Below, one piece after another: positions 91-18,537 of a stretch of 21,723 nt of DNA. The first letter of the stretch is position 1, and the number at the start of each line of letters is the position of its first letter. The DNA is from a bacterium (GTDB lineage Bacteria > UBP15 > UBA6099 > JAJRTR01). The stretch is from the NCBI GenBank assembly GCA_024278215.1, contig JAJRTR010000154.1:1-21723 (forward strand). Reading direction: 5' to 3'. The position numbers and the translations under genes are program-made. The notes beneath the pieces were generated by a model. It was given only the letters and a program-made list of their open reading frames with translations. It was not told where the DNA came from and did no database searches.

Positions 91-594
91 TTATTTTTTC
101 CTCGGTGAAATGAATGCGGCGGGCACACCTCCCACCACACTGAAAGGTTCGACATCCCTGGAAACAACGCTTCCGGCAGCGACGACCGCTCCTTCACCAA
201 TTCTTATTCCGGGAAGAAGGATCGCACCGGCGCCGATCCATACATTCCGTCCCACAATCACATCCCCCTCGATATGGGCATCAGCGAACTTGCACCCTGT
301 AACCCGCGTATCGTGATTCACTGTAAATATCATCACGCCGGGACCTATAGCGGTGTAATCTCCGATTTTTATCGACGAATTGTCGTGTGCGTACAGCACT
401 GCATTATGGTTGATGGAGACATTGTCGCCGATTTCGATATTCTCCGGTCTGGCGGTTACCAGGCCCGGATAAACAACTACATTCTTTCCTCTCCTTATTC
501 GTCTGAATTGTATGCGTGTATCAGCCTCTCTCAGCATCCTGTAGATGCGGCTCAGGAATCCTTCGGTATATTTGTTTAATAACAAACGATTCAT
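91..594 (-). CDS. Hexapeptide-repeat acyltransferase (maltose/galactoside O-acetyltransferase-like)
   Basis: The predicted 167-residue protein is a left-handed beta-helix acyltransferase, a family that usually moves an acetyl group from acetyl-CoA to a sugar hydroxyl. Residues 1-35 form a basic helical lead. From about residue 50 there are typical hexapeptide turns (IEIGDNVSI, IKIGDYTAIGPGV, VIVGRNVWIGAGAILLPG, IRIGEGAVVAAGSVV), ending in the family's VVGGVPA loop. His94 in NHD is the likely catalytic base. I chose the ATG at 594, preceded by AAGAG seven bases upstream. The frame stays open to 702, but that extension only translates the mobile element at 636-819 and is discarded. As a downstream member of the flippase/radical SAM strand it probably acetylates a glycan building block. 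The acceptor cannot be read from sequence. Confidence 0.9.
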   Translation of the reverse strand: MNRLLLNKYTEGFLSRIYRMLREADTRIQFRRIRRGKNVVVYPGLVTARPENIEIGDNVSINHNAVLYAHDNSSIKIGDYTAIGPGVMIFTVNHDTRVTGCKFADAHIEGDVIVGRNVWIGAGAILLPGIRIGEGAVVAAGSVVSRDVEPFSVVGGVPAAFISPRKK

Positions 595-635
595 AACGGT
601 ACTCTTAACTGATCTTGTGCGTTTTTCAATATTAT

Positions 636-819
636 GAGCCGATTGCAAAATTCTGATTCTGCTGCGGTCGGCTGCTATTGTCCATAGCTGCGTTGTCGGC
701 ACAAAATCGTCCTCGACGTACTCTACAAGTACGCCTGCGAGGATTTTACACCTCCGCCTTGCTCTGAATAATTTCGCTCGACCTCCCTAGCGCTACGAAC
801 ATAATTTTGCAATTGGCTC
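636..819. mobile_element. Non-coding inverted-repeat element (MITE-like), copy of 184 bp
   Basis: This is the longest of the complete copies. The ends are inverted repeats (GAGCCGATTGCAAAATT on the left, AATTTTGCAATTGGCTC on the right) and it is flanked by a TTAT direct repeat on both sides (632-635 and 820-823). Inside, a second inverted repeat centres on CGTACTCTACAAGTACG, with AAAATC and GATTTT arms around it, so the whole unit can fold into a long hairpin. It differs from the other copies by about six extra bases near its right end (CCTAGC in the stretch just before the terminal repeat). No transposase is encoded. It occupies most of the 318-base gap between the radical SAM gene and the acyltransferase. 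Confidence 0.85.
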
Positions 820-2028: not shown

Positions 2029-3456
2029 TCAATTACCGTGTAACATATCGGAGAACTGCACGAAATCTTTTTTCGTTATTGTCCCGGAAATCACGAGCGC
2101 GCCCGCGAAAACCGCCGAGGCCGCCGGGATTCGGATAAGAAGATTATAATCGGCTGCAAATATCAGTGTGGCAAACATGCAGACGGCAGCTATCAACGGG
2201 CCGATGTTATTGAGGAGCAGCGGTTTTATATCGAATATTCTTTTGCAGGCCAGTAGTGTGGCCGTCGACATGACAATAATACTTATCAGCGAAGCGCAGG
2301 CGGCGCCGATATTACCTATACGCGGGATAAGTATCATATCCAGAACCAGATTCGTTATTATCGTTATAATTGAATACAAAAGAACGCTGTACTGCCTGTT
2401 GTATGAATACAGGGCGGATATATTGACTGAGTTGTAAAAAATGAAAGGGATGCAACAAGCCAGAACAACAAGAGTCGGGGCGGCCTCCGCATATTCAACG
2501 CCGGAAAAAAGAACGATCCATTCCCTGGCCGGAACAGCGGTGAATACCGTAATTGCCAGACCGATAATTCCCATATATTTGTATAACTCCGCCATTGCGG
2601 ATATAACCGGGGCATCCGATACCATAGAACGTCTTGAAAAATAAGGATATACGACTGAATTTACAGCCGTTGGTATGCCGATGAAAACAAAGGAGTACTT
2701 GAAGGCCACTGCGTACAGTCCGTTACCTTCCATGCTGTCTAGGTAGGGAATAATAATCTGGTCGATCCGGTTGTATATCTCCCAGATCACACTCATTGCC
2801 ATAAATGGAACCGCACGCTTCAGGATACTCTTCCACACTTTAATGTCAAACCCTATCCCGACGGAACTGTAATATTTTTTTGTCAGGTAGAATGCCACAG
2901 GCATAATGCTGAATACACCGAACAACTGGGTGGCGATAACTCCTTTAATCCTGTATCCGAGGAAGATGACAACGCCAAGGGCCGCAAGCATCGCCGCGCG
3001 GTTCATAAACTGCGTGATCGCCCTGAGCTCCAGTCGTTCCGTCGCCTGAAAAATAACAACATAAGATGTAAGGAGGGGACTGAGCAGTAATATGAGCGAC
3101 ATGAGGCGGAGAGCGGAACCCGCCTCCGGAGTGGGGACTGCAATGAAGCTGACGCCCCACAGAATCGCCGTCATTATCAAACCGGCTGTCGTTTTCAATC
3201 CCACTACCTGAGGCATCAATGTTTTTATTGTCGACCTGTCCCGGGCGATCTCTCTCACTATCAGGGTGCTTATGCCGAGGTCCACCACGGCAAGGAAAAG
3301 TCCTGCTGTTGAAACAGCGTATGAATACACTCCAAGTTCAGCTTTATTAAGATACCTGGAAACGATGACAAAATATATAATCATCAGAGCCTGCTGGAAC
3401 AGTTGTCCAAGCAGGGCATAACCTGTATTTTTCAAAAATTGAAATCGCTCGCTCAT
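2029..3456 (-). CDS. Wzx/MATE-like polysaccharide flippase
   Basis: The predicted 475-residue integral membrane protein is composed of about 12-14 hydrophobic helices separated by short basic loops. This is the pattern and length of the polysaccharide biosynthesis/export branch of the MOP flippase superfamily. Its likely role is to flip undecaprenyl-linked sugar units across the inner membrane. N-terminal features typical of the family are visible (NTGYALLGQLFQQ, then a helix ending SRYLNKAELGVYSYA, then GISTLIVREIARD). The ATG at 3456 is chosen because MSERFQFLKNTG begins family-like sequence. The frame stays open to 3648, but that extension translates the intergenic repeat. A second possible start at 3504 would add 16 residues (MLSCLHRIK...). 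It is transcribed divergently from the glycosyltransferase and precedes the radical SAM gene. Confidence in the class is high; the specific glycan is unknown. Confidence 0.88.
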   Translation of the reverse strand: MSERFQFLKNTGYALLGQLFQQALMIIYFVIVSRYLNKAELGVYSYAVSTAGLFLAVVDLGISTLIVREIARDRSTIKTLMPQVVGLKTTAGLIMTAILWGVSFIAVPTPEAGSALRLMSLILLLSPLLTSYVVIFQATERLELRAITQFMNRAAMLAALGVVIFLGYRIKGVIATQLFGVFSIMPVAFYLTKKYYSSVGIGFDIKVWKSILKRAVPFMAMSVIWEIYNRIDQIIIPYLDSMEGNGLYAVAFKYSFVFIGIPTAVNSVVYPYFSRRSMVSDAPVISAMAELYKYMGIIGLAITVFTAVPAREWIVLFSGVEYAEAAPTLVVLACCIPFIFYNSVNISALYSYNRQYSVLLYSIITIITNLVLDMILIPRIGNIGAACASLISIIVMSTATLLACKRIFDIKPLLLNNIGPLIAAVCMFATLIFAADYNLLIRIPAASAVFAGALVISGTITKKDFVQFSDMLHGN

Positions 3457-3575
3457 GCGCTGATCTGTTTCCTGTGTCTTTATCCTGTGAAGACAGGATA
3501 GCATCCACCGGTACACTTTGACAACAACAGGGACTTCGATAGTTCCGAAAACCGGCAAAGCCGGAACCAAACAGG

Positions 3576-3684
3576 CCGCATTTTCGTGCCCAAACAAATG
3601 CGGTTTGAGCACGGCACACGCACGGTCTACGGTTTGAGCACGGCACACAGAGTTTCATCGTTTCCAAGGTCTACCTTGGAAACG
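3576..3684. repeat. Hairpin repeat module, first copy (shared with 8485-8541)
   Basis: Bases 3585-3619 are identical to 8493-8527. The first hairpin is CCGCATTT (3576-3583) with AAATGCGG (3596-3603). A 29-bp unit beginning CGGTTTGAGCACGGCACAC is repeated in tandem (3601-3619 and 3630-3648). The module then runs via AGAGTTTCATCG into a near-perfect hairpin, CGTTTCCAAGGT (3659-3670), CT, ACCTTGGAAACG (3673-3684). It lies in the 475-base divergent gap between the flippase and the glycosyltransferase and codes for nothing convincing. Confidence 0.8.
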
Positions 3685-3931: not shown

Positions 3932-4882
3932 ATGCGTACGTGTTCCATTCTAATACCGACTTATAACGGAAGAGACATCCTTGCCGAATGTCTGCCTTCA
4001 ATAGTGGAGCATGTCGAAAGCCGTGGTGCCGGAGATGAGATAATTGTCCTGGATAATGCAAGTACCGACGATACCTGTCGCTTTCTTAAAGATAATTTTC
4101 CGGAAGTGCGGATTCTGCGGTTGGATGAAAATAAGGCTATTTTCGCATTGAACGACGGAGCGCGTGCAGCGGAAAACGCCTATCTGTTTTTTCTGAATAA
4201 CGACATGCTGTTGAAACCCGGTTGTATTGACGCCCTGCTTTGCCCATTTGATGATGAATCAGTTTTCGCGGTAACGGGAAAGGTATTTCAATGGGACCGA
4301 ACAACAGTTCAGGCCGGTCGCAGGCGGCCCGTTGTCGGAAAAGGATATTTCTGGTATCTCGCGGCGGGAAGCGATGAGCCGGGTCTTACCCTTCATGCGC
4401 TTGGCGGACAGTCCATATACGACAGACATAAATTCCTCGAACTGGGCGGTATCGACCCACTTTTTTCCCCCTTTTATCATGAGGACCTCGACCTGTCATG
4501 GAGAGCGCTCAGACATGGATGGCGGATTATCTATACCCCCGCGGCGGAGATGGTGCATAAAGGTGCCGCTACTGCCGGGAAGATGTACACAAGACAACAG
4601 ATAAAAACTATTATGCAGAAAAATATGTTTCTTTTTATCTGGAAGAACCTTCACGACATGAAATTTACCATTGCACATATATTATGGCTCCTGCCCAGGC
4701 TGATACGTGAAACGGCAGCGGGAAACTTCTCATTCGCATCAGGACTCGCCGGCGCTGTCGGCCAGCTGCCTGAAGCAATGCAGGCCCGGAGAGCTGTGCG
4801 TCAATCGAAACTCTCGGATTCCGATGTATTAAAGATGTTCCCGGCTGCCAGTGAAACGCAGGTAGAGCCAATTGCAAAATGA
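3932..4882 (+). CDS. Family 2 glycosyltransferase (WbbL/rhamnosyltransferase-like)
   Basis: The predicted 316-residue GT-A enzyme transfers a sugar from a nucleotide-sugar donor. It starts with the beta-strand SILIPTYNG (5-13), then has the nucleotide-binding DNASTD (41-46), the metal-binding DXD-equivalent NND (89-91) in FFLNNDMLLKPG, and the acceptor-side FYHEDLDLSWR (181-191) with the presumed catalytic Asp185. His209 (MVHKG) is also typical. The N-terminal half is strongly GT2. The C-terminal 80 residues are helical and partly amphipathic, suggesting membrane association. The ATG at 3932 has AGGT nine bases upstream. The final six residues (VEPIAK) and the TGA are encoded by a decayed copy of the mobile element, so the original C-terminus has been replaced or trimmed. 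Sugar specificity cannot be read. Confidence 0.92.
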   Translation: MRTCSILIPTYNGRDILAECLPSIVEHVESRGAGDEIIVLDNASTDDTCRFLKDNFPEVRILRLDENKAIFALNDGARAAENAYLFFLNNDMLLKPGCIDALLCPFDDESVFAVTGKVFQWDRTTVQAGRRRPVVGKGYFWYLAAGSDEPGLTLHALGGQSIYDRHKFLELGGIDPLFSPFYHEDLDLSWRALRHGWRIIYTPAAEMVHKGAATAGKMYTRQQIKTIMQKNMFLFIWKNLHDMKFTIAHILWLLPRLIRETAAGNFSFASGLAGAVGQLPEAMQARRAVRQSKLSDSDVLKMFPAASETQVEPIAK

Positions 4883-5099: not shown

Positions 5100-6629
5100 C
5101 TAATATCTGACCCGATCACTTACATCAACGAAGTCGAACCTTTGTGTGCCTCCCCAGCCTTCGGGGAAATAATTCCTGTCGTCCAGCAATTCGAAATTCA
5201 TGTTGAAGTAATAATCAAATATAACGCGGAATGTGTTTACCGGAGTGATTCTATCGTAGAGGAGAGATTCGCCGCCGTCGGGCAGATAGTATGCGTTGAA
5301 TATCCGCATCCTCTCGCGAAACATCTCGTCGACTCCGACGTCGTGCGAGTTAAACAATGCAGGTTCCAGTTTCCTGCCTTCTTTTTCGAATTGCTGGAAC
5401 TTTGTAAGCGTTCCATGGTCGCCCTGCATTACAATTATCGGAGGTGTCTTGTATGCCGTAAAAATTTTATCCAGCATGATCTTCAGCTTGTCGTTTACAG
5501 AATTCAGGTCGCTGCAATAGCGCGGAGAACCCGGAACCCATCCATAATGGATGACATCTATGTGCGCGAACGCGAAGAAAGGTCTTTTCCCCTGCTCGAT
5601 TTTCGGAATATCCGTAGTGACGCAATCGGTTTGCTTGTTGCTGCTGAACTGCTCGAAATAGTCTGAGAATGGCAGCAGCATTGTCGATTTAAGAAAGACA
5701 AACCAGAATTCGAACGCGCCGGCGCATTTATTTGACACATCAAAATATCTGTTGCGGTTAGTCAGTTGAAAGATGGATGAAAAATGGATCGTTTTATAAC
5801 CCTGTGATTTGAGAACATCCTTGACTTTATTGTCTTCTATGACCGCGATAAGTTTTGATATTGCGCTTTTATCAAAGTCGCTTCTTTTTCTCAACGGATC
5901 GATAAATCCGTCGAGATATGTCATGTTCAAGGAAGACGAGAGCGACTCGGGGGTATACATATAGTTGGACGTGCTCTTTGTCGCGATATAGAAACCCTTG
6001 TTGCGGAGATAATCGGTGAAATCGCTTATATCGCAATGAAAAGTATCGTTAAGGGTGGTTTCGTTCGGGTAACCGTCGATAATCATATAGATGATGTCGT
6101 GCGGATTTGCCGGCGTTGCGGATTCGGCTTCGGTTTTTTCCGCCTGACTCGCTTTCCGTACCTTTGTGTTGACGCTCGATAGCTCCCGTCTGCTCTGATA
6201 GATATTCAACACGGTCATTACTATCAGGGCGGCAGAGATGAAGTTTAGTATTTTCGTGAAGTTTGTGAGGTCTTTTTTGATTCTGATTATCAGGAACGAG
6301 CCCCCGAAAATCAGAACTGTCCAGAGAGGGAAAAGATAACGGTTTTTCGAAAATATCGCGGATAAGTTTGTGTGGATGAATGCGTCATAAACATGTCCGT
6401 AAGAACAAAACAGCAAAATGAGCAGCGAAGTGAGCAGAGCCGCCTTCAGGATGTTTTTGAAAATGAATTGCAGGATATCCAATATTATAAGCGCGATCAC
6501 GACCATAGCAGCCGACAGAACAGCGACATTTTTTTCCGCGCCCGGCATCTCCGCAACATTAACCATGTATATCAGCAAAACGGGATAAACGGCGAATAAT
6601 ATCGGGTGGAACGGCAGTGTTTTTTTCAA
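5100..6629 (-). CDS. Membrane-anchored sulfatase / alkaline-phosphatase-fold protein
   Basis: The predicted 509-residue protein has five hydrophobic helices in its first 145 residues (about 8-26, 36-57, 60-79, 99-117, 125-143). A linker and an extracytoplasmic alkaline-phosphatase-fold domain (about 175-509) follow. Visible metal and active-site elements are Asp185 (IYMIIDGY), a Thr226 candidate nucleophile in SNYMYTPESLSSSLN, and Asp404-His405 in GDHG. The Cys/Ser of classical formylglycine sulfatases (CXPXR) is absent, so it is more likely a phosphotransferase or phosphodiesterase-type member. The start is a TTG: an AGGAG at 6643-6639 abuts the TTG at 6638 but is nine bases from the TTG at 6629, which I prefer. 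The 6638 alternative would overlap the upstream stop as TTGA. Translational coupling with the methyltransferase gene is likely. It is the last gene of a three-gene operon. It probably modifies a surface glycan or lipid in the periplasm. Confidence 0.82.
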   Translation of the reverse strand: MKKTLPFHPILFAVYPVLLIYMVNVAEMPGAEKNVAVLSAAMVVIALIILDILQFIFKNILKAALLTSLLILLFCSYGHVYDAFIHTNLSAIFSKNRYLFPLWTVLIFGGSFLIIRIKKDLTNFTKILNFISAALIVMTVLNIYQSRRELSSVNTKVRKASQAEKTEAESATPANPHDIIYMIIDGYPNETTLNDTFHCDISDFTDYLRNKGFYIATKSTSNYMYTPESLSSSLNMTYLDGFIDPLRKRSDFDKSAISKLIAVIEDNKVKDVLKSQGYKTIHFSSIFQLTNRNRYFDVSNKCAGAFEFWFVFLKSTMLLPFSDYFEQFSSNKQTDCVTTDIPKIEQGKRPFFAFAHIDVIHYGWVPGSPRYCSDLNSVNDKLKIMLDKIFTAYKTPPIIVMQGDHGTLTKFQQFEKEGRKLEPALFNSHDVGVDEMFRERMRIFNAYYLPDGGESLLYDRITPVNTFRVIFDYYFNMNFELLDDRNYFPEGWGGTQRFDFVDVSDRVRY

Positions 6630-6634
6630 TTGTT

Positions 6635-8014
6635 TCAACTCCTGCGACGATAGAGGTAAAGGACCCGCTCCGAATCTCGAAGTTTTTCCGATCCGGATAT
6701 TTTAAAATGCTTCTCGAAGGCTTTTTCAAACGCTTCACGTGTATAATCCGAAAAAATATCTTTTCTTGTCGCCAGTAATCTACGGACCTGCGAATCGCTC
6801 TTCGGTATATATTCAACAATGAGACTTCGGCAAATCCTGCTGAAGAAATCCGCGATTCGGGGAAACGGCACATTGTTTGAAACGGCGAGATGATGCAGCA
6901 GCGCGAGCGCCAGAACCACGTCGGCAGGTCCTCGCGCGATGAAGGAATCTCTTTCGCTGCCCGCCCAGCCGAGGCTCGGGCTGGGATTCGTCAGATCGAG
7001 CAACAGCGGCAGAATGTTGGACGTACCGTTTTTTTTGCAATGAAGATAATTACGTTCGACCGCCGCAGGGTCCGTGTCGCTCGATATGGTGTAGATACCT
7101 TTTTTACTCACGATACGGCTGAACTCGCCGGTGTTTGCGCCGAGGTCCCAGGCCGTTGCGGGCTTGATCTCGTCAAGGAATTCCGCCACGACCTGTTTCT
7201 TGCGCTCGAAAGCCTCAGGCGAATAGTTCGTGTCGCTGTAATAATCGGCCCATTCGGTGCCGCCGGGCTCCCATCGCAGTTTCTTCACAGTGGATTCAAG
7301 ATTGTCGATGAGTCCGAGCAATCCCATGCGGCTGACTCTGCCCCCGGACGGCTTGATAGCTTTGTCCGAATAATGTTTCCGGCTTCCGGCGTGAATGTGT
7401 ATGTTCGTCAGGAGCGAGAATTTAAAACGTGTGGAGAACGGGAGCAGTTTGCTTGCAAGGTCCAGGGGCACGCCGTCGATGTAAATGCGAAGAAGCTGGT
7501 TAAGGCGTACGTCCCTGTAGCTCATAAGTGCAAGGGGCGCGAGGAAGTGGCGGCAGAACTGTCCGTATGCCACCCATGGTTTGCCTTCCACGTATTTCTC
7601 GAATGAGAGCGTATCGATGAATACAGGTTTTCCGTTTATGAATTGCACATTGTACGCGCTGCTGTCCTTGAGAGTCATATCGTATTCGAGGGCGGTTTTC
7701 TGAATATCGAGCGTCATAAGCGCAGCGTCTTTCAACTGCGAAAAACACCACTCGTAGGGATACGACACGAACGGCACAATCTCCGGTTTGATGATTTTGT
7801 ATGAGGTCGATGGAACCGCGGGCGTGACGTCGACTTCCTCGTGCGGTATCAGAAATTTTTTGTTCGCGAGAGCGGCATACAGCCCGGAATCAATGAAAAG
7901 ATCGAAATCGTCCTGGAAAACGCGATTAACCTGTCTGTAAAGAACATTATTTCTGTAAAATATAAAACCGCTCGGGTCGCGAAATGAACTATCGTGCATC
8001 GACTCAGACTTCAT
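6635..8014 (-). CDS. NoeA-like protein: kinase-like N-domain fused to SAM methyltransferase
   Basis: The predicted 459-residue protein has two parts. The C-terminal part (about 265-459) is a class I SAM-dependent methyltransferase: motif I WDLGANTGEFS (289-299), acidic SSDTD (311-315), DLTNPSP (340-346), and VVLALALLHHL (366-376). The N-terminal part carries DSSAYN (117-122), then FINGKPVFID ending at Asp134. The spacing D-x4-N followed 12 residues later by Asp matches the catalytic loop and metal-binding Asp of protein-kinase/aminoglycoside-kinase folds. From memory the closest annotated relatives are nodulation protein NoeA-like methyltransferases. The ATG at 8014 overlaps the upstream small gene by 11 bases, and the stop lies five bases before the next start, so the three genes are one transcriptional and translational unit. 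Kinase activity is inferred, not shown. The substrate is probably a glycan. Confidence 0.82.
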   Translation of the reverse strand: MKSESMHDSSFRDPSGFIFYRNNVLYRQVNRVFQDDFDLFIDSGLYAALANKKFLIPHEEVDVTPAVPSTSYKIIKPEIVPFVSYPYEWCFSQLKDAALMTLDIQKTALEYDMTLKDSSAYNVQFINGKPVFIDTLSFEKYVEGKPWVAYGQFCRHFLAPLALMSYRDVRLNQLLRIYIDGVPLDLASKLLPFSTRFKFSLLTNIHIHAGSRKHYSDKAIKPSGGRVSRMGLLGLIDNLESTVKKLRWEPGGTEWADYYSDTNYSPEAFERKKQVVAEFLDEIKPATAWDLGANTGEFSRIVSKKGIYTISSDTDPAAVERNYLHCKKNGTSNILPLLLDLTNPSPSLGWAGSERDSFIARGPADVVLALALLHHLAVSNNVPFPRIADFFSRICRSLIVEYIPKSDSQVRRLLATRKDIFSDYTREAFEKAFEKHFKISGSEKLRDSERVLYLYRRRS

Positions 8015-8240
8015 TGTCGGGAGGGTCCTTTTTTCTGGAGAAAATCAGGGCCAACCGCTTTTTGAGTTTTCGCCAGTATATCTTCAGCGTCACCAGCACA
8101 CCGAGGAACGAAGCGATGGCGACCTGCAGGAAAAAACTGCCTGTGCCCATGTCGAGATAGGCGTGTGCCGGGCGTTCGAATATAAAACAGACTACACATG
8201 CGAAAGAAAGAACAATAAGCGTCATTCTGACACGATTCAT
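8004..8240 (-). CDS. Small signal-peptide-bearing membrane protein with YLDxGTGSxxxQ motif
   Basis: The predicted protein has 78 residues. Residues 1-27 look like a Sec signal peptide (basic start, hydrophobic core, cleavage after AHA at 25-27). The mature protein would begin YLDMGTGSFFLQ, run into one transmembrane helix (about 35-55), and end in a very basic tail (KIYWRKLKKRLALIFSRKK) that should stay in the cytoplasm. The ATG at 8240 has a strong AGGGG five bases upstream. It is the first gene of the overlapping operon with the NoeA-like and sulfatase-fold genes. I recall small proteins with a conserved AYLDPGTGS start next to such genes in other bacteria. No function is known to me. A scaffold or accessory role for the neighbouring enzymes is a guess. 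Confidence 0.8.
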   Translation of the reverse strand: MNRVRMTLIVLSFACVVCFIFERPAHAYLDMGTGSFFLQVAIASFLGVLVTLKIYWRKLKKRLALIFSRKKDPPDNEV

Positions 8241-12779: not shown

Positions 12780-14606
12780 ATGAGTGCCGACGAAGAAGAA
12801 CACAATTATCATTCCCGCGCTCCGCGAGAGGCAGCCGAGCAGAAAAAAACGATGGCTGTACTGACTGTTGTCAGTTCGCTTGCAGGTATTGTTTTTATTT
12901 ATCTCGGGCGCAGGTACCATACTCCCCTTCTTAACAGTGCAGGTGTTTTTTTCCTCTTTATTGCCGTTACGGAAATTCTCGTATACAGGCTGCTTGTGTT
13001 CAGAGTGCGATGCGAGGAAATTTCCGGCGGCGACGATTTGAATATAGGCGACGAATCGGAGTCAGGCGGCAGGGAGAACAGTAGCGCGCGGGCCTGGTGG
13101 AATATGCAATCCGGAGGTTTGCAGTCCGGAGTGCTGACCCAGACAGCTGTCGGTATAGTGCTGGCTTTCTATGCTTACTATTCGTTTAAAGCGCCTGCGG
13201 TGGCGGCTGCGGCTGCGGCAGGCAAAGAGGTCTATGGTTTCGGAGTCCTTTGTGTGGCGCTCGCGTTTGTGTGCCTTGTCATATCGAGATTACTGTCCGA
13301 GTACAGCGGGAAGGATTTTCCCGAAGCAGCCGGTCTCGAGCATCTTTTTAAACTCGCGATATGGCAGTTGATGGTCAGCGCGGCTCTTTTTATTCTTCAC
13401 GGGCTCGGGGTTCCGAACCTTGAGAAGACGGGCCACAGCATATTTCTGATTCTTTATCTGTTCCTCGCCGCCGAGATAATTATCAGGTCTGTCGCCGCAT
13501 GTTTCGCCGAGGAAAAACCCATTACCGACATCACGGTGCAGACCGATTACCTTGTGGTGCGGTTCCTCGTTTCCGGTGCCAACCCGATAAGCAGTATCGC
13601 AACGAATCTTGAGGAACAGTTCGGAGTGAACTTCAAGAGCAGTTGGGCGATCGACTTCATTCGCAGGGCCATCGGGCCGATTACATTTGCACTTGTGCTG
13701 CTTGCCTGGCTGTGGTCTTCACTTGTAATGGTCACGCTTTTCGAGGAGGGCATTCATCTCCGGTTCGGTCGGCCCGTGACGCGCGAAACACTGAAACCCG
13801 GACTGCACATTGTGATGCCGTGGCCGGTGGACAGGGTTCTGAAGGTGCCGGTGACACGCCTCAATGTGATGACGATCGGTTATGAAGAATCGAAACCCAA
13901 TGCCAGCCTGCTGTGGACGAAATCTCACGCGGCCCGGGAATACAGTCTGCTCGTCGGCAACGGACGTGACCTCGTAACGGTGAATGCCGAACTCGTATGG
14001 AAAATAAAAAACGCTTATGATTTTACATTTAATTGTCAGAATCCGGATGCGGTGTTAAAAGAAGTCGCATACCGAGTGCTGCTGCTCGAGACCATCGGCA
14101 AGGATCTCGACGGAATCCTGAGCGATAATGTTAAGGTTTTCGTTGAAAGGGTCAAGGGAGAGATACAGGAAGCCGCCGACGACAGCGGGCTGGGGATCGA
14201 GGTCGTCGCTTTCTATCTCAAAGGTCTTCACCCGCCCATCGAGGTCGCGCGCGACTACCAGGCGGTCGTCAGCTCGAAGATCGACAAGAAGAGAATGGTA
14301 ATAGAAGCGAACGCATACAAGCTCCAGTCGATCCCCATCGCCGAGTCCACAAGCGTGGAAAAAGTGAATACCGCGCTGTCATACAAATACTCACGCCTGT
14401 CCGACGCGGGAGGAGCGGCTGCAAAGTTCACCGCCTTATATTCCCAGTACCGGGTGGAGCCTGAACTGTACATGTTCAGAAGCAGGCTCGAGACACTCGA
14501 AGGAGTGCTCGGCGAGGGGCGTGTATATATAGTGGACGACAGGTTTATAGACAACAAAGAGCCGATAACGGTCGATTTCAGGCAGTTCTTTAAAAAGAGT
14601 TTTTAA
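12780..14606 (+). CDS. SPFH (HflK-like) protein with N-terminal six-helix membrane domain
   Basis: The predicted protein has 608 residues. The first 245 residues contain six hydrophobic helices (about 24-44, 49-73, 119-139, 150-170, 190-210, 220-240). A soluble stretch and a seventh helix (298-320) then lead into a band-7/SPFH domain. That domain begins FEEGIHLRFGRPV and has the HflK-like PGLHIVMPWPVDRVLKVPV (340-358). The rest (to about 500) is the SPFH alpha/beta part, and the C-terminal helix 490-570 is the oligomerisation region. Ordinary HflK has one helix, so the six-helix domain is an addition. Weak TGAG upstream of ATG 12780. A TATAAT at 12752-12757 may serve as -10 but has no matching -35. 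First gene of an operon with two more SPFH genes and a metal ATPase. SPFH proteins form membrane cages or microdomains. The partner protease FtsH is not in the window. Confidence 0.85.
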   Translation: MSADEEEHNYHSRAPREAAEQKKTMAVLTVVSSLAGIVFIYLGRRYHTPLLNSAGVFFLFIAVTEILVYRLLVFRVRCEEISGGDDLNIGDESESGGRENSSARAWWNMQSGGLQSGVLTQTAVGIVLAFYAYYSFKAPAVAAAAAAGKEVYGFGVLCVALAFVCLVISRLLSEYSGKDFPEAAGLEHLFKLAIWQLMVSAALFILHGLGVPNLEKTGHSIFLILYLFLAAEIIIRSVAACFAEEKPITDITVQTDYLVVRFLVSGANPISSIATNLEEQFGVNFKSSWAIDFIRRAIGPITFALVLLAWLWSSLVMVTLFEEGIHLRFGRPVTRETLKPGLHIVMPWPVDRVLKVPVTRLNVMTIGYEESKPNASLLWTKSHAAREYSLLVGNGRDLVTVNAELVWKIKNAYDFTFNCQNPDAVLKEVAYRVLLLETIGKDLDGILSDNVKVFVERVKGEIQEAADDSGLGIEVVAFYLKGLHPPIEVARDYQAVVSSKIDKKRMVIEANAYKLQSIPIAESTSVEKVNTALSYKYSRLSDAGGAAAKFTALYSQYRVEPELYMFRSRLETLEGVLGEGRVYIVDDRFIDNKEPITVDFRQFFKKSF

Positions 14607-14611
14607 GGCCC

Positions 14612-14617
14612 GGGAGG
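14612..14617 (+). promoter_or_regulatory. Ribosome binding site that fixes the HflC-like start
   Basis: GGGAGG at 14612-14617 is eight bases upstream of GTG 14626 but overlaps the earlier GTG at 14617. The downstream GTG is therefore the better start. Confidence 0.7.
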
Positions 14618-14625
14618 TGCCGGAA

Positions 14626-15513
14626 GTGGGAAGGTATATATTCAGGATCATCAGCGGTCTGGTAGTGGTGGGTGTGATCCTTTTCTACATGTTTACTTTA
14701 CAGGTGAGGGAAGGCCAATACGCAGTCGTAGCGCGGCTGGGCAAGCCGGTAAATGTTTATAAGGATGCCGGCCTGCACAGGAAGCTTCCATGGCCGTTCG
14801 AGAGATACGCGATTATCGACGGGCGCAGCAGGGTGTTCAATACCCGCCATACGGAGATGCTCACAAGAGACAAAAAGAATATCATACTGCTCAGCTATGC
14901 GATCTGGCGTGTCGAGAAACCCCTGGTATTTTTCCAGTCGATCGGAACCGTTGATTCTGCCGACACCAAGCTGGACGGCCTCATCACAAACGCGAAAATA
15001 AGCGTAATGGGCAAGAATGACCTAAGTGCTCTCGTGTCCACGAATAAGGACGATCTGCGGGTCGGCGAGATCGAGTCGGAAATACTCGATATGGTAGAAG
15101 AAGAAGCACTGACGAAATATGGTATCATAATCGAACAGATAGGATTCAAGCGACTGTCGCTGCCCGAGGACAATATAAAATACGTATTCGACCAGATGCG
15201 TGCGGAAAGAGCCCAGTATGCAGCGCGCTACAGGGCGGAAGGCGAACGCGAAGCATCGAAAATAAGGTCCGAGACAGACCTCGAAGTTTCGCGGATTCTG
15301 GCCGACGCCAACGAGAAAGCCGCCCGAATAAAGGGCGAGGCGGAAGCGCAGGCGGCGAAAATATACGCCGACGCCCACAAGATCGACCCCGAGTTCTACA
15401 GGTTCACGAGATCTATGGAATCGCTAAAGAGCCTGCTCAGCAGCCAGACGACCGTTATACTCGGCACGGACGCCGAGCCGTTTAATTACCTGAAAAGCAA
15501 ATCACCGAAATGA
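14626..15513 (+). CDS. SPFH protein, HflC-like
   Basis: The predicted protein has 295 residues with one N-terminal helix (about 5-25), so an inner-membrane protein with a large domain outside the cytoplasm if it follows HflC. The SPFH domain starts VREGQYAVVARLGKPV and contains KLPWPFERYAIIDGR. A long charged coiled coil follows (RAERAQYAARYRAEGEREASKI to AKIYADA), then the family's FYRFTRSMESLKSLL and VILGTDAEPFNYL. This is the classic HflC order. The GTG start is placed at 14626 by its ribosome binding site, three codons inside the longest frame. It begins 19 bases after the previous gene and ends 19 bases before the next. In E. coli HflK and HflC form a cage around FtsH. Here the partner is likely the other SPFH proteins of the operon. 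Confidence 0.9.
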   Translation: MGRYIFRIISGLVVVGVILFYMFTLQVREGQYAVVARLGKPVNVYKDAGLHRKLPWPFERYAIIDGRSRVFNTRHTEMLTRDKKNIILLSYAIWRVEKPLVFFQSIGTVDSADTKLDGLITNAKISVMGKNDLSALVSTNKDDLRVGEIESEILDMVEEEALTKYGIIIEQIGFKRLSLPEDNIKYVFDQMRAERAQYAARYRAEGEREASKIRSETDLEVSRILADANEKAARIKGEAEAQAAKIYADAHKIDPEFYRFTRSMESLKSLLSSQTTVILGTDAEPFNYLKSKSPK

Positions 15514-15522
15514 TTATAGGCC

Positions 15523-15526
15523 GGAG
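15523..15526 (+). promoter_or_regulatory. Ribosome binding site for the third SPFH gene
   Basis: GGAG is six bases before ATG 15533. This chooses the ATG over the TTG one codon upstream at 15530. Confidence 0.65.
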
Positions 15527-15532
15527 TAATTG

Positions 15533-16576
15533 ATGCCTGAAACAGACAATATACAACAGGGTGAACCGGCGCAAGAAAAGTCGAGCGCGGTAATGAGCGC
15601 TCTCGATTCCGGTTTCACGTATGCACGGTGGGGAATAGTGCTGCTTGTTATTGTGTACCTGTTTTCAGGTGTAACGGTTATCGAAACTGATGAAGTCGGG
15701 ATGGTCCTGCGTTTCGGACGGCTCGTCGGATCGGTTCCGGCAACACAGATCAGACACCCCGGCCCTGTTTTCATGTTCCCTAAACCCATCGACGAACTCG
15801 TCCGTGTAAAAGTAAAAAAAGTTATGGAACTTAAGATAACGGATTTGTACAGACCCGAATACATCAACCAGGTACAGGGCGCGGACAGGATGCCGTTCAA
15901 CGATACCATCGACCCGGAAAACGAAGGCTATTGCCTCACGGGCGATCACAATGTCGTGCAGACACTGATAACCGTCAAATACCAGATCACCGATCCGATA
16001 GCTTATGTTTTCGGCAATCAGGCGCCCGCGGATACTATCAGGGACACCGTGCTGGCGGCCATGGTCAGGTCGACAGGCGAGGAAAAAGTCGACAGCATAA
16101 TAACAGTCGGCAAAAAACAGTTGCTGTTAACCGTTCAACGCCGTGCGCAGAAAAGGCTCGACGACATTCATGCCGGAGTGACGATACAGTCGTTCGAGTT
16201 CAATGAACTGATGCCGGCGCGGCAGGTTCTCAAAGAGTTTAAAGCAGTGCAGAACGCATACATCGAAAGGGAAACAAAGATAAAGGAAGCGAGCAGCTAT
16301 AAGGAAGAAAAGATTCCCGGCGCGGAAGCGTCGGCGGGAATGACGGTTCGCGAGGCGGAGGCATACGCCGCCGATGTGCTGGCAGGCGCGAGGGGCGACG
16401 CGAGCGCGTTTGAAAACATGCTGGTCGAGTACCATCGCGACCCCGAAGTTGTGCGCGAACGTCTCTATCGCGAAGCCGTCGACGATTCGATGTCGTGGCT
16501 TGCGGATGTTACCATCGTTCCTGTCGATCCGAAATCACGGAAGCAGGGCGCAAATATTATACTGCCCGGAAAATGA
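15533..16576 (+). CDS. SPFH protein, HflK-like
   Basis: The predicted protein has 347 residues with a short soluble lead and one helix (about 32-51). The SPFH domain begins VIETDEVGMVLRFGRLVG and has HPGPVFMFPKPIDELVRVKV (75-94). NVVQTLITVKYQITDP (140-155) is the HflK-like strand pair. The C-terminal part has the coiled coil AYIERETKIKEASSYKEEKIPGAEASA and the HflK signature AEAYAADVLAGARGDASAFENMLVEYHRDPEVVRERLY (275-312). Together with the HflC-like protein it gives a complete K/C pair. The last bases overlap the ATPase start as ATGA, so translation of the two is coupled. This ties the metal pump to the SPFH assembly in amount and probably in place. Confidence 0.9.
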   Translation: MPETDNIQQGEPAQEKSSAVMSALDSGFTYARWGIVLLVIVYLFSGVTVIETDEVGMVLRFGRLVGSVPATQIRHPGPVFMFPKPIDELVRVKVKKVMELKITDLYRPEYINQVQGADRMPFNDTIDPENEGYCLTGDHNVVQTLITVKYQITDPIAYVFGNQAPADTIRDTVLAAMVRSTGEEKVDSIITVGKKQLLLTVQRRAQKRLDDIHAGVTIQSFEFNELMPARQVLKEFKAVQNAYIERETKIKEASSYKEEKIPGAEASAGMTVREAEAYAADVLAGARGDASAFENMLVEYHRDPEVVRERLYREAVDDSMSWLADVTIVPVDPKSRKQGANIILPGK

Positions 16577-18537
16577 CCGGGATAGCTCCAGGCACAGAAG
16601 TTCGTGCCATGCCTGAACAGAAAATAAAAATGAGCATAAACGCAACAGCAGTAAGTGATACAATAATGGAATCGGCGCGAACTGCGATGTCGCGCGCCGA
16701 GCGCATACGAATCGGCGCGCGGCTCTCCACATCCATAGCCGGCGCGGGCCTGCTGATTGTCGGCATGATCTATTCCCGTATGCAGCCCGGCCAGCCTGCT
16801 GTCGGTGCCCTGCTGTCGGCTCTGGCGTCAATCGTCGTCGGCATTCCCGTCATGGCAATGGCTCTCAAAGGATTCGTTTCAAAAAAACAGGAATACTATA
16901 CCGAGCAACTTATTTCACTTGCGATACTCGCTTCGATGGCGAGAGGCGAGTATGTCACGGCAACTCTTGTTCCTCTTTTTATGGCGATAGGACATTTCCT
17001 TGAAGAGCGAAGTATACTCGGCGCGCGCCTCGCCATAGAAAAAATAAAAGAGCTAAACGCGAGAAAAGCAAATCTGCTCGAAGGCGAAACCGAACGCCGT
17101 GTAAAACCAGAAGACCTTAAATCCGGTGATCTTATTATCGTGCGTCCCGGCGAGGTGCTCCCCGTGGACGGAACGGTTGTCGAGGGGTGGTCGTCGGTCG
17201 ACCAGGCCCCTGTTACCGGCGAATCCGTATATGAGGAAGTGGCGCCGGGCAGCAAAGTTTTCGCGGGCACGATCAATCTCAACGGTCTTCTCAGAGTGAC
17301 GGTTACAGGCGTGGGCGCAGACACGGCGCTCGGGCGCGTAATAGATATTCTCAAGCAGGCGGAATCGTCGAAAGCGCCCGTCACCAGGCTTATCGAACGA
17401 TACGCTTCTTTCTACCTTCCTTTTGTCATATCTTTTGCCGCGGTTGTGCTTTTCCTTACTATGGACACAACCCGCGCTATCACTGTTCTTGTGGTCGCAT
17501 GTCCCTGTGCTTTTGTGCTTGCAAGCCCTGCGGCGATGGTGGCCGCTCTCGCCGTAGCTTCGCGCATTAAAGTGCTCATAAAAAACACCGGCTTCCTCGA
17601 AAAACTCAGCGACATTGATACTCTCGTTCTCGATAAAACAGGCACAATAACGCTCGGAAGATTAAAAGTTTCAAAACTTTTTCCGGCAAACGGAATTGAT
17701 GAAAACGAACTGCTTGCAAGGGCCGCCTGCGCGGGATACGGTTCGCGGCACCCTGTCTCCGTGTCGATATTCGAGGAGGCTGCCGGGCTGGAGATCAAGT
17801 TGGCTAAACCGGAAAAAGTTACCGAAGAACCAGGCAAAGGCACTATTGTCGCAGTAAACGGAGATGAACTTCGACTGGGCCGCCTTTCATGGATAAAAGA
17901 ATATGCGTACGACTGCAAACAGTGCAATGAACCGGGCGGCACGGTGACATATCTTGCAATGAATGGGAAATACCTGGGCGCGGTGCAGCTAGAAGACCGG
18001 CCACGTCCCGAAGCGAAACAGGCTATTGAACAGTTGAGAAAACTCGGTGTAAGTAGAACACTTCTTGTTACCGGCGATAAAAAATCCGTGGCGGAAAAAA
18101 TATCCGACGAACTCGGTTTCGACACATGTATAGCAGAAGCGCTGCCGGAAGATAAGCTGACAATTATACAGAACGAACGTGCAAAAGGCGCGAAAATCAT
18201 GATGCTTGGTGACGGCGTGAACGATGCCCCTGCGCTTGCAGGTGCAGATGTAGGTGTCGCCCTCTGCGCAATGGTCAACGATGTCGCCATCGGCAGTTCC
18301 GACATTGCCATAATGACAGACAACCTGCTTCGCGTGCCGCAGATAATCAGGCTCTCTCATGCCGTGCGCTCGATTATAAATCAAAATGTTCTATTCGGGG
18401 CGGGCTTCAGTGTCGCCATGCTCACGCTTGCGTCGATGGGCCTGATAAGTCCCGTTCTCGGCGCGATCCTCCACAACGGTGGCGCGATATTCGTCGTCTT
18501 CAACAGCGCACGCCTCCTCAAAACTGACATTAAATGA
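16573..18537 (+). CDS. P1B-type heavy-metal translocating ATPase without HMA domain
   Basis: The predicted 654-residue pump exports or distributes a metal ion across the inner membrane using ATP. Visible motifs are the actuator TGES (215-218), the transmembrane metal site CPC (310-312), the phosphorylated Asp354 in DKTGT, the nucleotide-binding HP (393-394), and GDGVND (546-551). The first 45 residues lack a CXXC or HMA domain. In the last helices the sequence is LHNGGAIFVVFNSARLL. Zn/Cd pumps such as ZntA have an acidic DxG at this place, so the metal is uncertain. An extra CKQC (448-451) lies in the ATP-binding domain. The start is taken at ATG 16573, overlapping the upstream stop as ATGA. 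Starts at 16609 and 16630 are possible but have no better ribosome site. Last gene of the SPFH operon. Confidence 0.93.
   Translation: MTGIAPGTEVRAMPEQKIKMSINATAVSDTIMESARTAMSRAERIRIGARLSTSIAGAGLLIVGMIYSRMQPGQPAVGALLSALASIVVGIPVMAMALKGFVSKKQEYYTEQLISLAILASMARGEYVTATLVPLFMAIGHFLEERSILGARLAIEKIKELNARKANLLEGETERRVKPEDLKSGDLIIVRPGEVLPVDGTVVEGWSSVDQAPVTGESVYEEVAPGSKVFAGTINLNGLLRVTVTGVGADTALGRVIDILKQAESSKAPVTRLIERYASFYLPFVISFAAVVLFLTMDTTRAITVLVVACPCAFVLASPAAMVAALAVASRIKVLIKNTGFLEKLSDIDTLVLDKTGTITLGRLKVSKLFPANGIDENELLARAACAGYGSRHPVSVSIFEEAAGLEIKLAKPEKVTEEPGKGTIVAVNGDELRLGRLSWIKEYAYDCKQCNEPGGTVTYLAMNGKYLGAVQLEDRPRPEAKQAIEQLRKLGVSRTLLVTGDKKSVAEKISDELGFDTCIAEALPEDKLTIIQNERAKGAKIMMLGDGVNDAPALAGADVGVALCAMVNDVAIGSSDIAIMTDNLLRVPQIIRLSHAVRSIINQNVLFGAGFSVAMLTLASMGLISPVLGAILHNGGAIFVVFNSARLLKTDIK

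Follow-up and report, generated by a model that had tools for sequence, protein, structure and literature searches.

The cassette at positions 5100-8240

The window analysed here is a stretch of 21,723 nucleotides (nt) from a bacterium of the UBP15 lineage (assembly GCA_024278215.1, contig JAJRTR010000154.1, positions 1 to 21,723, forward strand). Three minus-strand genes, running from 8240 to 5100, encode a 78-amino-acid (aa) single-pass mini-protein, a 459-aa fusion protein and a protein with five transmembrane (TM) helices and an alkaline phosphatase (AlkP) fold. The cassette is almost certainly of the NoeA/NoeB type, named after two nodulation genes of Sinorhizobium. Its features are as follows.

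8004..8240, minus strand: gene 1, mini-protein, 78 aa, with a signal peptide ending in AHA, the motif YLDMGTGS, one TM segment and a basic tail
6635..8014, minus strand: gene 2, NoeA-like kinase-like/methyltransferase fusion, 459 aa, cytosolic (neither TM segment nor signal peptide seen)
7349..7993, minus strand: kinase-like half of gene 2, residues ~8-222, with R27, D117-x4-N122 and D134 and the element order seen in the model
6638..7264, minus strand: class I methyltransferase half of gene 2, residues 251-459, with H374-H375 at 6890-6895 and R450 at 6665-6667
5100..6638, minus strand: gene 3, NoeB-like 5-TM AlkP-superfamily protein, 512 aa from the first TTG
6141..6608, minus strand: five-TM-helix region of gene 3, residues 11-166 (model helices 11-26, 35-60, 63-88, 102-119 and 125-166)
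5103..6107, minus strand: periplasmic AlkP-fold domain of gene 3, residues 178-512, with D188, T229 (5952-5954), H359, H364 and D407-H408 (5415-5420)

The last 11 bases of gene 1 are also the first 11 of gene 2, and the first TTG of gene 3 shares 4 bases (TTGA) with the gene 2 stop. A second TTG, at 6629, has AGGAG 9 nt upstream and encodes the N-terminus LKKTLPFHP, the only one of the two that fits the family consensus MKKxxxxHP. Gene 3 probably starts there, given the AGGAG spacing and the consensus match, which yields 509 aa. A preliminary description of this DNA had linked the genes by an 11-base overlap followed by an abutting TTG; the open reading frames (ORFs) are as it described, and the second TTG lies 5 nt past the stop, so that its term "abutting" is apt. 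Each of the three genes has a single match in the source genome. For genes 1 and 3, neither Pfam nor NCBIfam nor PHROGs offered a family of any use. The possibility that gene 1 is a spurious ORF was ruled out by its conservation.

Homology to the S. meliloti noeA/noeB operon

Gene 2 shares 35% identity with Sinorhizobium NoeA across 98% of the length (tblastn). On pSymA of the alfalfa symbiont S. meliloti the gene order is nodL, a 71-aa ORF, noeA and noeB. The 71-aa ORF (L010:5748-5963) overlaps noeA and belongs to the mini-protein family, with a sequence of the HAYLDPGTGS type. Profiles of the three families, made without rhizobial or Novosphingobium sequences, matched the S. meliloti small ORF at 4.6e-18, NoeA at 1.6e-135 and NoeB at 5.6e-20. 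All three genes are therefore homologous to the known nodulation trio, and the same profiles also match the corresponding trio of Novosphingobium. This adds a small mini-protein gene to the nodL-noeA-noeB operon. The literature found lists only nodL, noeA and noeB in the operon, and no mention of the YLDPGTGS motif was found in the literature searched.

A bioinformatic survey of kinases in 2022 assigned the NoeA family, including Lani_1194, to kinase-methyltransferases and NoeB to the AlkP fold, and reported two conserved neighbours at 65% and 38% among 816 NoeA-family neighbourhoods (PMC9758233). The preliminary description had proposed a conserved but uncharacterised system. Conservation holds, as the same trio occurs from candidate phyla to S. 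meliloti, but the system is not new, its neighbourhood having been reported in that survey (PMC9758233). No biochemistry of the NoeA/NoeB cassette was found in the literature searched.

Conservation of the cassette across phyla

At least 576 NoeA-like relatives were found among 84,980 genomes scanned; the loci compared are the best 80 of these and lean to close relatives. Upstream genes were counted at the 83 loci whose upstream flank exceeds 500 bases, including plasmid, viral-collection and window loci. The mini-protein gene lies inside the contiguous cassette at all 83 and immediately 5' of NoeA at 79. With S, A and B for the mini-protein, NoeA and NoeB genes, the remaining four show the order S-B-A (L021, L022) or A-S (L009, L057). 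NoeB lies directly downstream of NoeA at 48 of 78 loci, and at half of the NoeA-NoeB junctions (25/50) the two genes share 4 nt, NTGA. Chance does not account for the arrangement, since the mini-protein gene keeps its place in the cassette throughout and NoeB so often adjoins NoeA. Random neighbourhoods, which the preliminary description had named as the outcome that would refute its reading, are thereby excluded.

The link between NoeA and NoeB is often missing. Fourteen Chloroflexota loci, without an adjacent NoeB, share a housekeeping neighbourhood (topA, dprA, manC, rimM, greA) or a common downstream gene. In the six Chloroflexota genomes without linkage that were searched, strong NoeB homologues lie elsewhere (6/6; E 1e-135 to 1e-156). 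A tree of 57 NoeA proteins spans 16 named groups, mostly phyla. Horizontal transfer of NoeA is likely, because the groups are mixed in places, yet not proven, as few inner branches are well supported. Three contigs of a viral collection (L093, L094, L095) carry NoeA and the mini-protein gene, along with NoeB-like genes. At L043, L047 and L070, NoeA is followed by two tandem NoeB-like genes.

The NoeA-like kinase-like/methyltransferase protein

The kinase-METHYLTRANSFERASE protein encoded by gene 2 has a confident AlphaFold model (predicted local distance difference test, pLDDT, 90.3). The preliminary reading of a kinase-like/methyltransferase fusion is borne out for both halves, on different grounds. 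The methyltransferase half is evident from the model, and a fold search with the whole model returned a match list filled by methyltransferases. The N-terminal half is kinase-like, as judged from its motif, the order of its structural elements and the published model (PMC9758233). R27, D117-x4-N122 and D134 are invariant (29/29, including NoeA and the Novosphingobium protein), in agreement with the kinase assignment of Lani_1194 (PMC9758233).

The residues of the methyltransferase half point to a phosphate as the acceptor. In WbdD, the methyl-phosphate chain terminator of the E. coli O9/O9a antigen, H132, H133 and R203 are each required in vitro for phosphate methylation (PMC3482155). Aligned with the WbdD sequence of E. 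coli HS, H132-H133 fall onto H374-H375 of gene 2 (hhalign, 94-96%), and R203 falls onto R450 in both global hhalign and MAFFT alignments. H374, H375 and R450 are invariant in all 52 NoeA-like sequences. We consider methyl-phosphate chemistry by the NoeA-like enzyme somewhat more probable than its absence.

The rhizobial setting suggests another substrate. The kinase-methyltransferase might act on a small amphipathic signal or lipid instead of a polymer, in line with proposals that link NoeA to Nod factors, with the methyl group perhaps placed on a sugar hydroxyl or other group and NoeB acting on an unrelated phosphate. In S. meliloti, noeA and noeB follow nodL in a nodulation operon, and the literature treats both as genes of host range or Nod-factor modification (PMC9758233, PMC9048898). 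The methyltransferase fold also ties with that of NodS, a Nod-factor methyltransferase, and NoeB is unlinked in many genomes. However, the carriers are for the most part free-living, belong to many phyla and have no Nod factor, and H374, H375 and R450 fit the phosphate-methylating set of WbdD. We regard a small signal or lipid as a rather unlikely substrate. The biochemical function of noeA and noeB, as host-range nodulation genes, has been unsettled since 1995. In a nodulation paper of that year, noeA and noeB mutants reportedly had unchanged Nod factors. If so, a surface glycan or lipid would be a likelier substrate than the Nod factor. A nodulation-deficient strain, M162, has been reported to carry a truncated noeA (PMC4053727).

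The NoeB-like membrane protein

The AlphaFold model of gene 3 (pLDDT 88.7) combines five TM helices with an AlkP domain. Its top structural match is YejM/PbgA, tied with EptC, and LtaP, MCR-1 and S1 sulfatases are also near. D188, T229, H359, H364 and D407 are near-invariant among 44 NoeB-like proteins, in which the nucleophile column holds Thr in 41, Ser in 3 and Cys in none. By analogy with EptA and LtaS, the gene 3 protein would be expected to form a phospho-Thr intermediate and then transfer or hydrolyse a phosphodiester.

The preliminary description had assigned gene 3 a sulfatase fold. As a fold this is correct, and the AlkP assignment stands in the confident model, but the nucleophile is a Thr and not the Cys or Ser of formylglycine sulfatases, on which ground the label "sulfatase" was rejected. 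That gene 3 truly encodes a sulfatase, desulfating glycans and unrelated to its neighbours, is thus highly improbable, even though Pfam Sulfatase matches 33 of the 44 family members and S1 sulfatases are the best PDB matches of the family profile. With no Cys in the nucleophile column, most members of the family cannot generate formylglycine. The 5-TM and AlkP layout is that of EptA/LtaS-type proteins, and the linkage of the gene 3 family to NoeA is conserved.

The mini-protein

Mini-protein homologues were found at 89 searched loci. They share the core Y-[LI]-D-P-G-T-G-S-x3-Q, a TM segment, a W and a basic tail, and Y28 and Q39 are invariant. The net charge averages +3.3 over the 16 residues past the TM segment, and neither K nor R ever occurs in the motif. 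AxA precedes the Y in 52 of 88 mini-proteins, where cleavage by signal peptidase would make Y the first mature residue, and those without a signal peptide begin MYLDPG or MHFAPLPYLDPG. A topology with the N-terminus outside and the C-terminus inside (N-out/C-in) fits, because the charge after the TM segment, the AxA before Y and the starts of the signal-less members all agree with it. A sortase-like C-terminal sorting signal, which would likewise comprise a motif, a TM segment and a basic tail, is disfavoured, as loss of the signal peptide leaves nothing ahead of the motif; the conservation of a Q and a W in and behind the TM segment disfavours it further. Among apparent fusions of mini-proteins to longer ORFs, the one that was read, L072, is an over-extended start.

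The mini-protein occurs about once per whole genome, beside NoeA, and is absent from four order-mates of the window genome that are without NoeA. A search of plasmids with short mini-proteins (tblastn) gave no matches. A second home was seen in six of six Anaerolineales genomes examined, where a related MYIDPNTGG mini-protein lies immediately 5' of a PF01663 phosphodiesterase homologue. This pair stands without NoeA at L099:4887-6872, where a sulfotransferase gene follows, and at L106-L111. At L116 (G013:C13 around 219472-219810), tandem mini-proteins precede NoeA, the first of the MYIDPNAGG type and the second of the MNFSPLPYLDPGSGS type. In either home the gene that follows codes for a protein with no apparent TM segment, and the simplest role common to the two would therefore be that of a membrane anchor.

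The exposed motif allows for a different role, in which the cassette would be directed at a protein, to modify or regulate it. NoeA would then be a protein kinase/methyltransferase, the mini-protein its substrate or its receptor in the membrane, and NoeB a non-catalytic sensor like YejM/PbgA. YLDPGTGS lies outside the membrane and is nearly invariant, as a recognition site would be, YejM/PbgA shares the top rank among structural matches of gene 3 with EptC, and H408 is replaced by Glu in 9 of 44 NoeB-like proteins. Set against this, D188, T229, H359, H364 and D407 hardly vary at all, as would befit an active enzyme, the methyltransferase residues fit a carbohydrate-phosphate enzyme, and glycan genes are commoner among the neighbours than in controls. 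A protein-directed cassette appears distinctly unlikely.

Genomic surroundings

The cassette lies beside glycan genes, as the preliminary description had noted; three of these were identified within the window.

3932..4882, plus strand: GT2 glycosyltransferase, convergent with the cassette
2029..3648, minus strand: Wzx-like polysaccharide flippase
91-702, minus strand: hexapeptide transferase

A gene for a radical SAM/SPASM protein is located on the same side as the GT2 gene, and the other side holds leucyl aminopeptidase, an EamA transporter and murB. Farther along, at 12780-18537 on the plus strand, three consecutive SPFH/Band 7 genes are followed directly by a P-type ATPase gene; the first of the three is HflK-like, with 608 aa and a long N-terminal extension. 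The 123 neighbour proteins drawn from loci not in the housekeeping group fell most often into the families methyltransferase (7), sugar epimerase/dehydratase (5), GT2 (4), GT87 (4) and GT1/GT4 (3). None of those families reaches two members among 110 control proteins from elsewhere in the same genomes.

A proposed model of glycan phosphate modification

We suggest that the cassette modifies a membrane-linked glycan on both sides of the inner membrane. The mini-protein, N-out/C-in, would anchor the NoeA-like enzyme on the cytosolic face of the inner membrane. There the kinase half might add phosphate to a hydroxyl on a glycan or glycolipid that is linked to the membrane, probably through a polyprenyl or lipid group. 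The methyltransferase half could then methylate that phosphate, as WbdD does in capping the O9a antigen. After export, the NoeB-like protein may act in the periplasm on this glycan or a related one, transferring or cleaving a group that contains phosphate. Taken as a whole, this model is tentative, with a likelihood that we place slightly short of even. The preliminary description had proposed that the cassette caps or decorates a lipid-linked glycan, a reading that is partly supported. Phosphorylation and subsequent methylation are backed by the counterparts of the WbdD residues and by the invariance of the kinase motif; the lipid-linked glycan substrate and the periplasmic transfer or removal of a phosphate group are inferred.

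Several observations weigh against the model. The kinase half is undetectable by sequence in Pfam and in a sequence search of solved structures, and hhalign of this half against WbdD gave no match (probability 0.3%). The methyltransferase half ties with ChlM, NodS, MePCE, BCDIN3D and WbdD at Z 17-18, and fold alone therefore does not choose the substrate. WbdD Y16 has no clear counterpart in gene 2, and the control for the H-H and R set comprised only three neighbourhood methyltransferases, all lacking it. To these are added the Glu replacements of H408, the frequent separation of NoeB from NoeA and the location of Anaerolineales cassettes among housekeeping genes. The enrichment of glycan genes near the cassette is also modest, and its control small.

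A more specific version would be a two-compartment system. The tethered enzyme would make, in the cytosol, a methyl-phosphate on a carrier linked to the membrane, from which a NoeB-type Thr enzyme would move methyl-phosphate to a periplasmic glycan via a covalent intermediate. YLDPGTGS mini-proteins might then be general adaptors by which cytosolic phosphate-handling enzymes are tethered to the membrane, as the second home beside the PF01663 phosphodiesterase hints. We consider this extended scheme unlikely. If the cassette does place methyl-phosphate on a membrane-linked glycan, the question of noeA and noeB becomes directly testable, and the answer would cover the cassette in many phyla.

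Comparison with known systems

WbdD, like gene 2 with its kinase-like half, joins a kinase and a class I methyltransferase in one protein, and its phosphate-methylation residues H132, H133 and R203 have invariant counterparts in NoeA-like proteins. The order differs, as WbdD runs from methyltransferase to kinase to coiled coil, whereas gene 2 begins with the kinase-like half and ends with the methyltransferase, without a C-terminal coiled coil. Unlike the NoeA cassette, the WbdD locus has neither a mini-protein nor an AlkP partner. Gene 3 shares five TM helices, an AlkP domain, a Thr nucleophile and conserved Asp/His ligands with EptA/EptC/LtaS and YejM/PbgA, but only ~10% identity. Type I (formylglycine) sulfatases carry their Cys/Ser nucleophile in C/S-x-P-S-R, at a position that Thr takes in 41 of 44 members of the gene 3 family.

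Legionella Lani_1193-1194-1195, compared by its description, likewise places a kinase-methyltransferase of the NoeA family beside an AlkP-fold protein and one further conserved neighbour (PMC9758233). Lani_1193 is presumably the mini-protein; the text of the survey gives no description of it. The nod-box n5 operon of S. meliloti differs from the cassette in its nodL and nodulation context, which is absent at the window locus, where no nodulation genes were seen. Identity between the NoeA proteins is ~35%, and the homology of NoeB is detectable by profile only. The S. meliloti operon nevertheless holds the same three genes in the same order, with the small ORF overlapping noeA as gene 1 overlaps gene 2.

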